Part shown: one piece after another, positions 34,140 through 36,460 of the stretch | How positions within the stretch are numbered: position 1 is the first letter of the stretch | How the letters are laid out: the number at the start of each line of letters is the position of its first letter | Source of the DNA: Christensenellaceae bacterium | Lineage (GTDB): Bacteria > Bacillota > Clostridia > Christensenellales > Borkfalkiaceae | NCBI GenBank assembly: GCA_022768945.1 | Contig: JALEKY010000006.1 | Span: forward strand, 1 to 36,460 | Length of the DNA: 36,460 nucleotides | Direction of reading: 5' to 3' | Translations under genes and position numbers: made by a program | The notes under the pieces: generated by a model | The model's database searches: none | What the model saw: only the letters and a program-made list of their open reading frames with translations | What the model was told of the DNA's origin: nothing

Positions 34140-35183
34140 TCAATCTTTTCTCAGCTTAATCACGCTTGCTGATTTTCTTCTGCTTTCTTCGGAAATAGCC
34201 GCGTAATGCTTTCTCGTCGTGTTTACGTCTTTATGCCCGAGGCAGTCCGCAACCTGATAAATATCGCCCGTTTCGCGATATAAATTCGTGCCGTAAGTGC
34301 TTCTCAGTTTGTGCGGCGTAATATGTTTAAGCGGCGTAACTATGCTCGCATACTTTTTTACTAAATTCTCTACCGCACGCACGCTCATTCGCCTGTTTTG
34401 GAGAGATAAAAACAAAGCTTTTTCGTCTTCGGGAACGTCCTTGTTTTTTTTGCGCTCGGAAACGTACTTAAAAAGGCATTCTCCTACCTCGTCGGGGAAA
34501 TACAAAATAGTTCTGTTTCCGCCCTTTCTCGTAACGATGAACCCGTTTGTCATAAAGTCTATATCGTCCACGTTAAGACCTACAAGCTCGCTTATACGAA
34601 TGCCCGTTCCGAGGAAGAGGGAGAGAAGAGCAACGTCGCGCAGCTTTGTGTTTTCGTGGTATTTTTTCATATGAGGAGTGAGTTCTTCTCCGTATTCCGC
34701 TTCGTTTAGAATATCCACGACTTCGTTTACTTCCAGCCTGACTATTTCTTTATCGTGAATTTTCGGCAGAGAAATTTTTGCCGCTTCGTTAGAATCGAGC
34801 AGCCCTTTATTGAAAAAATATCTGAAAAAAGAACGAACGGACGCGAGTTTGCGTTTTTTCGCCTGCTCGTTGCACGACCGCGTTTTTCCTTCGGGATCAA
34901 CGTAATTTCCGAGATACGAAAGGAATTTTTCAAAATCGAAAGACTCGATTTCCTCCAATTTTTCAAGCGTGATTTCGTTTGGGGTAAGAGGGGAAAACCT
35001 CTCTTTTGAAAGGTAATCGAAAAACACCCTTAAATCGTACGCGTAATTTAGCCTCGTAAGCGTAGAAGTTCTCGGCTCTATACCGACGAAGTAATCCTCG
35101 ACGTAAGGGGGAAGAGACTGAATTATTTTTTTAATTTTAATGATATTTGCGCGATTTCTGTCAGCGTAAAAATCTTTTCCCAT
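34140..35183 (-). CDS. Tyrosine recombinase, Xer family (XerS-like)
   Basis: 347 aa with CGGAG upstream. Catalytic residues: R196 (GTGIRISEL), K220, H291 and R294 (HKLRST), H317 (GHKDVNTT) and nucleophile Y327 (KHYA). The N-terminal domain begins with about 25 extra residues (IKKIIQSLPPYVEDYF), resembling XerS of streptococci rather than XerC/XerD of about 300 aa. The likely job is resolving chromosome dimers, which fits scpAB nearby. An integrase of a mobile element is the alternative, but operon linkage to hflX argues for a housekeeping gene. Confidence 0.88.
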   Translation of the reverse strand: MGKDFYADRNRANIIKIKKIIQSLPPYVEDYFVGIEPRTSTLTRLNYAYDLRVFFDYLSKERFSPLTPNEITLEKLEEIESFDFEKFLSYLGNYVDPEGKTRSCNEQAKKRKLASVRSFFRYFFNKGLLDSNEAAKISLPKIHDKEIVRLEVNEVVDILNEAEYGEELTPHMKKYHENTKLRDVALLSLFLGTGIRISELVGLNVDDIDFMTNGFIVTRKGGNRTILYFPDEVGECLFKYVSERKKNKDVPEDEKALFLSLQNRRMSVRAVENLVKKYASIVTPLKHITPHKLRSTYGTNLYRETGDIYQVADCLGHKDVNTTRKHYAAISEESRRKSASVIKLRKD

Positions 35184-35450: not shown

Positions 35451-35615
35451 CGCATCAAAAAAAACCAAACCTCATAGTTTTCCGCTCGCACATAACTTTT
35501 TAGATCTAACGACTAACGATAAAATAGTTTAAACAACTTAATATCAATTTTTTAATAACAAGATAAGTCTAAAAGTACGGGGAAGAGAGAAACAAAACCG
35601 CTTCAAACACTTATA

Positions 35616-35655
35616 TACAACTCTGCGTAAAACCCTTGTTTTACGCAGAGTTGTA
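35616..35655. repeat. Perfect 17-bp inverted repeat
   Basis: TACAACTCTGCGTAAAA (35616-35632) and its exact complement (35639-35655) around the 6-base loop CCCTTG; pairing can extend with TTATA/TATAA into the -10 box at 35657. The right arm belongs to the direct repeat; the left arm is missing at the second copy. Confidence 0.9.
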
Positions 35656-35693
35656 CTATAATCTTTGATAAAATAACATAAAAATTTAAACTT
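35632..35693 (+). repeat. Direct repeat copy 1 (promoter-like)
   Basis: 62 bp matching 36399-36460 with one mismatch (first 44 bases identical). Contains TATAAT at 35657-35662 and a weak TTGTTT at 35636 with 15-bp spacing. Sequence to the left differs between the copies, so the left boundary is sharp at 35632. Confidence 0.92.
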
Positions 35694-36235
35694 GTCAAGT
35701 AAAATTACAAACTTTTTAAAAATTACTCAAATTTTTACACACGCATTGACGCAGTAGTGCGTGTGTCATAAGCGCCTGAAGCGCTGTTCCTGTATAAGGG
35801 CGAACATCTTCGTACACATTCCATTTAATCAGAAAGAGCCTGCTCAATCACTTGAACAGGCTCCGTATACATTTAACGGCGTATAAGCCTTTGAAAAGGC
35901 TTGCGAAACTTTTAATGCGCGGACAAGTCGCGAGGGTTATCCGTCCCCTCTACACGCGGAAGTTGCCGTTAAATTCGATATTGTGTTTGCTTACGTGAAA
36001 ATTGCCGAGGTTAACCATAACGTGCCGTGTTGGTGTAGTTACGGGCTGAAAGTAACTCTTTCCGAGGTACGCAGAGGGCGAGCTCGGGGGGCACAACCAT
36101 TCCCCCACTACTCGCCCCCCAAAAAAACAAACTCGCGTACGCTCGACAAGGGCAAACACCTTAACCCGGACTTGTGACGTATAATTGCGCAAAGTTGAGT
36201 TGAGTTCGGAGGAGTTCCGAATTCTATACTTTTTA
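35669..36235 (+). ncRNA. Candidate large structured RNA (about 570 nt)
   Basis: No plausible protein frame, but many inverted repeats in a nested order: 35737-35745/35758-35766 (9 bp), 35771-35775/35781-35785, 35836-35842/35857-35863 with inner TCAA/TTGA, a long-range 10-bp perfect helix 35871-35880/35965-35974 enclosing 35885-35891/35896-35902 and GAGGG/CCCTC (35932-35950), 36037-36042/36052-36057, a stacked set CGAG, GTACGC, GGGCGAG, GGGGG pairing outward from 36063-36090 to 36102-36145, ACAAG/CTTGT (36146-36175), and 36202-36210/36216-36224 followed by TATACTTTTT, a possible terminator. A TATAAT box lies just upstream. Size and style recall large ornate RNAs such as ROOL, GOLLD or OLE, but I cannot match any. 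Strand is favoured by the promoter, the T run and one G-U pair; another pair favours the minus strand. Confidence 0.45.
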
Positions 36236-36398
36236 CCCCTTGAAACTGTAACACGGATAAGTCGAAACAGTTTACACGTAATTCGAAAGAGTTCACTTTT
36301 GGCTTATTTAAATGGCTCAAAAATTGTACGGGCACAAGCACCATACTATTGTCGGGAATTTCGACTTTGACCATAAAAAAGCCTTTTAATTTCGTTAC

Positions 36399-36460
36399 AC
36401 CCTTGTTTTACGCAGAGTTGTACTATAATCTTTGATAAAATACCATAAAAATTTAAACTT
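36399..36460 (+). repeat. Direct repeat copy 2, cut by window end
   Basis: Same 62 bp as 35632-35693 with one mismatch, 767 bp downstream in the same orientation, running off the window. A second copy of the RNA unit may begin here. The left arm of the inverted repeat is absent. Confidence 0.92.

Follow-up and report, generated by a model that had tools for sequence, protein, structure and literature searches.

A probable IMEX-like element of 767 bp at the predicted dif site of a Christensenellaceae bacterium

The right edge of the window (the whole stretch of DNA analysed, 36,460 nucleotides, which is the entire contig C16) carries a 767-bp unit that is probably a nearly gene-less IMEX-like element at dif, or the remnant of a once larger IMEX. 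The features on which this reading is built, all present in the sequence, are dif, its conserved linkage to xer, an empty site, the unit itself, the degenerate dif that ends it and the first bases of a second unit; the geometry of an IMEX is suggested by the pairing of an intact with a degenerate dif across the unit, followed by a restart of the unit, when set against the empty site on contig C9. Insertion at dif is supported by this sequence evidence; catalysis of the integration by Xer would be expected from the nature of the site. The assembly is a draft of 1.66 Mb in 76 contigs, ~80% complete and probably a mixture of strains. The feature sits at the extreme right edge of contig C16, with sequence known up to 36460, and the 767-bp unit is known as a single case from this one incomplete assembly.

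The xer gene (34140–35183, minus strand) encodes a tyrosine recombinase of 347 aa that matches Pfam Phage_integrase at E 2e-30; it is the sole tyrosine recombinase detected in this genome (G000), being the only PF00589 match in a genome that is ~80% complete. The best NCBIfam match of xer is XerS, at 202.4 bits against a cut-off of 267 and therefore below it; the single recombinase and the XerS match below cut-off together suggest a single-recombinase Xer system in this genome, a reading qualified by the missing fifth of the sequence. Orthologues in genomes of the same genus are 72–77% identical. Adjoining xer is a perfect 28-bp palindrome of 11-6-11 form, TCTGCGTAAAA-CCCTTG-TTTTACGCAGA (35622–35649), which makes up the left junction of the insert; such a palindrome linked to a Xer recombinase has the typical look of dif (PMC5357621, PMC3091885). 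The site is predicted to be the dif of the chromosome, at which contig C16 ends and where the host Xer would resolve chromosome dimers, and xer is presumed to act on it. Other explanations considered for a recombinase gene near a palindrome were integron attC sites and an invertible promoter; dif linkage and conservation are the better explanation.

Other genomes of the genus have related palindromes upstream of the corresponding xer gene, and xer lies alongside in five of the five same-genus genomes in which a dif was found (this genome counted). A dif pattern search that allowed three mismatches was run on 301 genomes of the family, with the reversed pattern as a control; the pattern is present in 156 of the 301 and in 100 of the 173 good ones, mostly at one place per genome, while the reversed control gave few matches. 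Outside the genus, xer lies within ~0.8 kb of dif at 23 of the 27 true-palindrome loci that were fetched and is 56–63% identical there to the xer of the window; two of the four palindromic loci with no xer alongside run off contig ends. The symmetric, xer-linked dif recurs across the family with a consensus near TATTCGTAAAA-NNNNNN-TTTTACGAATA or its TATGCG variant (loci L019–L048 and L012–L015); the neighbor is xer at most of these loci, the status of a single tyrosine recombinase having been checked in G000 only. One genome of another genus, G271, displays two dif palindromes (C5:6690–6717 and C73:10746–10773), perhaps through contamination.

The dif pattern also detected a second dif in the same assembly, which lies at one end of contig C9. 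From this end inward, C9 features the xer-side flank of the window, dif, and then directly a PadR-family gene; the flank and dif common to the two contigs (35583–35650 in the window) are equal at 67 of 68 bases. The order PadR-dif-xer is also seen in G001, G002 and G004, as well as in G271. From the empty site on C9 and the order in these relatives, PadR-dif-xer is taken to be the native arrangement and the window, which has other sequence after dif, the occupied one. The presence of both an occupied and an empty site within one assembly is most simply read as a strain mixture. The one mismatch, T at 35628 where C9 has C, counts against the IMEX reading, as simple recombination offers no explanation for it; no contig joining the end of the unit to the PadR side was found in the assembly, and the far end of the array is unseen.

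The unit extends from 35651, the point where the window departs from the empty site, to 36417, and consists of an AT-rich left end and a hairpin-rich middle with no recognized protein. Near its far end is a degenerate dif, ATTTCGTTACA-CCCTTG-TTTTACGCAGA (36389–36416), in which the core and right arm are those of dif and the left arm has diverged; this would be an attP-type junction. The unit restarts at 36418 and is cut off by the contig end at 36460; the 43 bases of this second start equal 35651–35693 at 42 positions, the one difference being A at 35676 and C in the second copy. Also counting against the IMEX reading are the short view of the second copy, of which the contig shows 43 bases, the lack of another example of the unit in the collections searched, and the draft, probably mixed state of the assembly. 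An earlier sequence-only reading of this DNA had noted a repeat at 767-bp spacing up to the window edge, which is borne out by a direct repeat of 68 nt, 96% identical and 767 bp apart, whose second copy reaches the contig end. The same reading described a 62-bp segment of it as a repeated promoter region; the repetition stands, and the segment comprises the dif core, the right arm and the left end of the unit. The TATAAT within it is present (~35655) and lacks a good −35 box. Its suggestion of tandem units was right in kind, as a second unit begins at 36418; a restart at this point is compatible with either a circle or a tandem array.

For an IMEX-like element, the proposed mechanism is that the unit has at its end a dif core flanked by one good and one degenerate half-site, and that the host Xer would recombine this site with the chromosomal dif beside xer. 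After recombination, the intact dif would lie towards xer and the degenerate one at the opposite end of the unit, behind which further units or a helper element may lie in tandem. The unit is further proposed to be able to move or form a circle, with its replication and spread supplied by a helper; the hairpins may act as single-strand origin or packaging signals, or be part of a transcript.

A degenerate half-site has been reported for TLCphi and the gonococcal island (PMC5357621), and tandem arrays at dif have been described in Vibrio (PMC4246890). The unit resembles TLCphi/GGI-type IMEX in its position at the host dif, which is xer-linked as in relatives, beside an intact core and half-site; in the dif-like sites at both ends, the intact one at 35622 and the far copy at 36389 with one degenerate arm; in the existence of an empty dif without the element (the C9 end, one mismatch from the window, and the PadR-dif-xer order of relatives); in its tandem copies; and in having no integrase of its own, the unit being without a recombinase and G000 having only the one chromosomal xer. 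It differs in that it is 767 bp long with no recognizable gene, whereas known IMEX carry phage, conjugation or accessory genes; furthermore, its degenerate arm is not attributable to XerC or XerD, as only one recombinase is seen. The Legionella element LME-1, which has an intact dif on one side and a modified dif on the other (PMC9765430), shares with the unit this arrangement and a single Xer recombinase; however, it belongs to the system of a different phylum, and the unit is distinguished from it by its length of 767 bp, the lack of a recognized gene and the apparent tandem order. XerS/difSL of streptococci and lactococci is similar in that one recombinase is genetically linked to its dif, and XerS is the best NCBIfam match; however, the xer of the window falls below the XerS cut-off, and the site here is a symmetric 28 bp while difSL is an atypical 31 bp.

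The unit may instead be the decayed end, or an internal deletion derivative, of a larger phage or island integrated at dif, of which an intact copy would begin at 36418; this is possible and, on balance, unlikely. The second copy does open with the same 43 bases apart from one change, and in Vibrio related elements are known to form tandem arrays at dif (PMC4246890), but the unit contains no phage-like gene or remnant of one, and its similarity to phage records does not go beyond a dif-like stretch. The phage record MT838598 was rejected as a relative, since it shares only a dif-like stretch of 36 bases at E 0.3. This stretch, at L049:4157–4192 of the record (MT838598.1, 5080 bp, unannotated), agrees with the window in the right arm and GTTG. 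The viral contigs L059, L060, L065, L069, L070, L072–L074 and L079, in which AACTATTCGTAAAAC-NNNN-GTTTTACGAATAGTT or a close variant occurs as a full palindrome, are possible dif-integrating phages.

No second example of the unit was found in phage or plasmid records, viral contigs or species genomes, and a DNA search of 396 genomes of the order found no homologue of it; the pattern scans for the unit were for exact matches and the RNA model described below was built from one sequence, so that diverged relatives may escape both. DNA matches to the AT-rich 35673–35736 were rejected as homologues because this stretch occurs in unrelated intergenic DNA. Within it, TTGTCAAGTAAAATTACAAA.TTTTTAAAAA (window 35692–35736; L052:1501–1531) is met again in intergenic positions of other, unrelated members of the order.

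Doubtful, though compatible with the IMEX reading, is the proposal that the unit encodes a large structured non-coding RNA belonging to a new family, here borne by a mobile element; the predicted transcript would run on the plus strand from ~35669 to a terminator-like hairpin at 36202–36235, or else the other way round. The evidence lies chiefly in the hairpin-rich core (35740–36240), a candidate for structured RNA or single-stranded-DNA signals, which contains nested helices. Two of these had been pointed out from the sequence beforehand and are confirmed: the 10-bp perfect closing helix ATTTAACGGC is present at 35871–35880/35965–35974, and the stem at 36063–36145 appears in predicted folds. 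As to the accompanying claim that such nesting is hard to get by chance, the folding as a whole exceeds chance; a single perfect 10-bp stem is not rare. Folded as RNA, the plus strand of 35740–36240 reaches z −3.6, better than all 100 shuffles, and perfect stems of 8 and 9 bp number 11 and 5 versus 3.3 and 0.9 in shuffles, an excess matched by ~2% of them; for perfect 10-bp stems 0.27 are expected by chance, and at least one is seen in 16% of shuffles.

The minus strand of the same region folds with z −3.0, and the whole unit folded as single-stranded DNA gives z −4.7 on the plus strand and −4.5 on the minus strand; of 14 control windows of 500 nt taken elsewhere in contig C16, two give z −3.0 and −3.5. 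The strongest local folding signal (35526–35750) is largely the dif palindrome. The unit is rich in inverted repeats, and with much the same folding excess on either strand, neither is marked out as RNA. An RNA gene would also agree with the absence of a conserved protein in the unit and with the suitable placement of the terminator-like hairpin (36202–36224, plus strand), which is not above shuffle expectation. Against it are a structure excess that is nearly equal on the two strands and not far beyond the control windows, the lack of a homologue and thus of covariation, and the lack of an Rfam family at gathering score.

The size range, predicted many-helix fold, bacterial host and possibly mobile setting are reminiscent of ROOL, GOLLD, OLE and raiA, all of which had been put forward as candidates; however, the unit is without a match to their covariance models, either at gathering score or at E up to 10. 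The Rfam search of the unit as a whole gave nothing credible, its weak matches at E up to 10 falling far below gathering score. An RNA model of 35834–35977, built from this single sequence and run on 301 genomes of the family, recovered only itself besides one hit at E 0.015 per genome; this hit was rejected, as it is the chance expectation over 301 genomes. The fuller combination, in which a mobile element of 767 bp free of protein genes spreads by presenting a half-degenerate dif to the single-recombinase Xer system of its host and has a large structured RNA of a new family as its sole product, is considered distinctly unlikely.

It is improbable that the junctions are an assembly artefact in which shared sequence led a separate replicon with a dif-like site to be fused to the chromosome. 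The unit begins again before the contig end, as expected of a circle, and the assembly is a draft and probably mixed; however, the exact stretch common to the degenerate dif and the empty site is 18–19 bases, which is short for a k-mer join, and there is a one-base difference between the two starts of the unit. Moreover, a circular replicon with a dif would itself represent such an element in a free form.

Pfam and NCBIfam gave no match for any ORF in the unit, in agreement with the initial judgment that it has no credible protein. The longest (36108–36374, minus strand) is an 88-aa ORF with its ATG at 36374 and a possible ribosome-binding site, AAAAGG, upstream. Searches by tblastn and against protein families returned no convincing relative; two matches in genome contigs, in unrelated bacteria, are short or 35% identical, and the ORF is probably not a conserved gene. 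A sigma-70-like promoter, TTGACA-17-TATTTT with TG (35670–35698, minus strand), has 10 of 12 consensus positions and reads outward over dif; transcription from it would enter the unit only if this were circular or arranged in tandem, and promoter-like sites are no commoner in the unit than in shuffles. That the unit encodes this 88-aa protein, the hairpins being incidental, is very improbable: the start codon with its AAAAGG, and a promoter that would reach the ORF in a circle or array, are set against the failure of tblastn and family searches to find relatives beyond those short or 35% identical matches.

If real, the IMEX-like unit would be unusually small for an element that uses the dimer-resolution site, and would illustrate the minimal needs of a Xer hitchhiker. 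With an apparently single-recombinase Xer system and a symmetric, xer-linked dif across the family, other dif-borne elements in this group should be easy to find. The case is also a caution for RNA claims, as attachment sites and small hairpin-rich elements can mimic ornate RNA genes.

Extra dif half-sites are seen between dif and xer at loci L019, L030, L033, L039, L040 and L048. They were considered as small inserts and rejected as such on account of this position; together with L101, where an extra half-site (1703–1740) lies right at the xer promoter, the position makes it more likely that they are Xer binding sites, through which Xer perhaps regulates its own gene.
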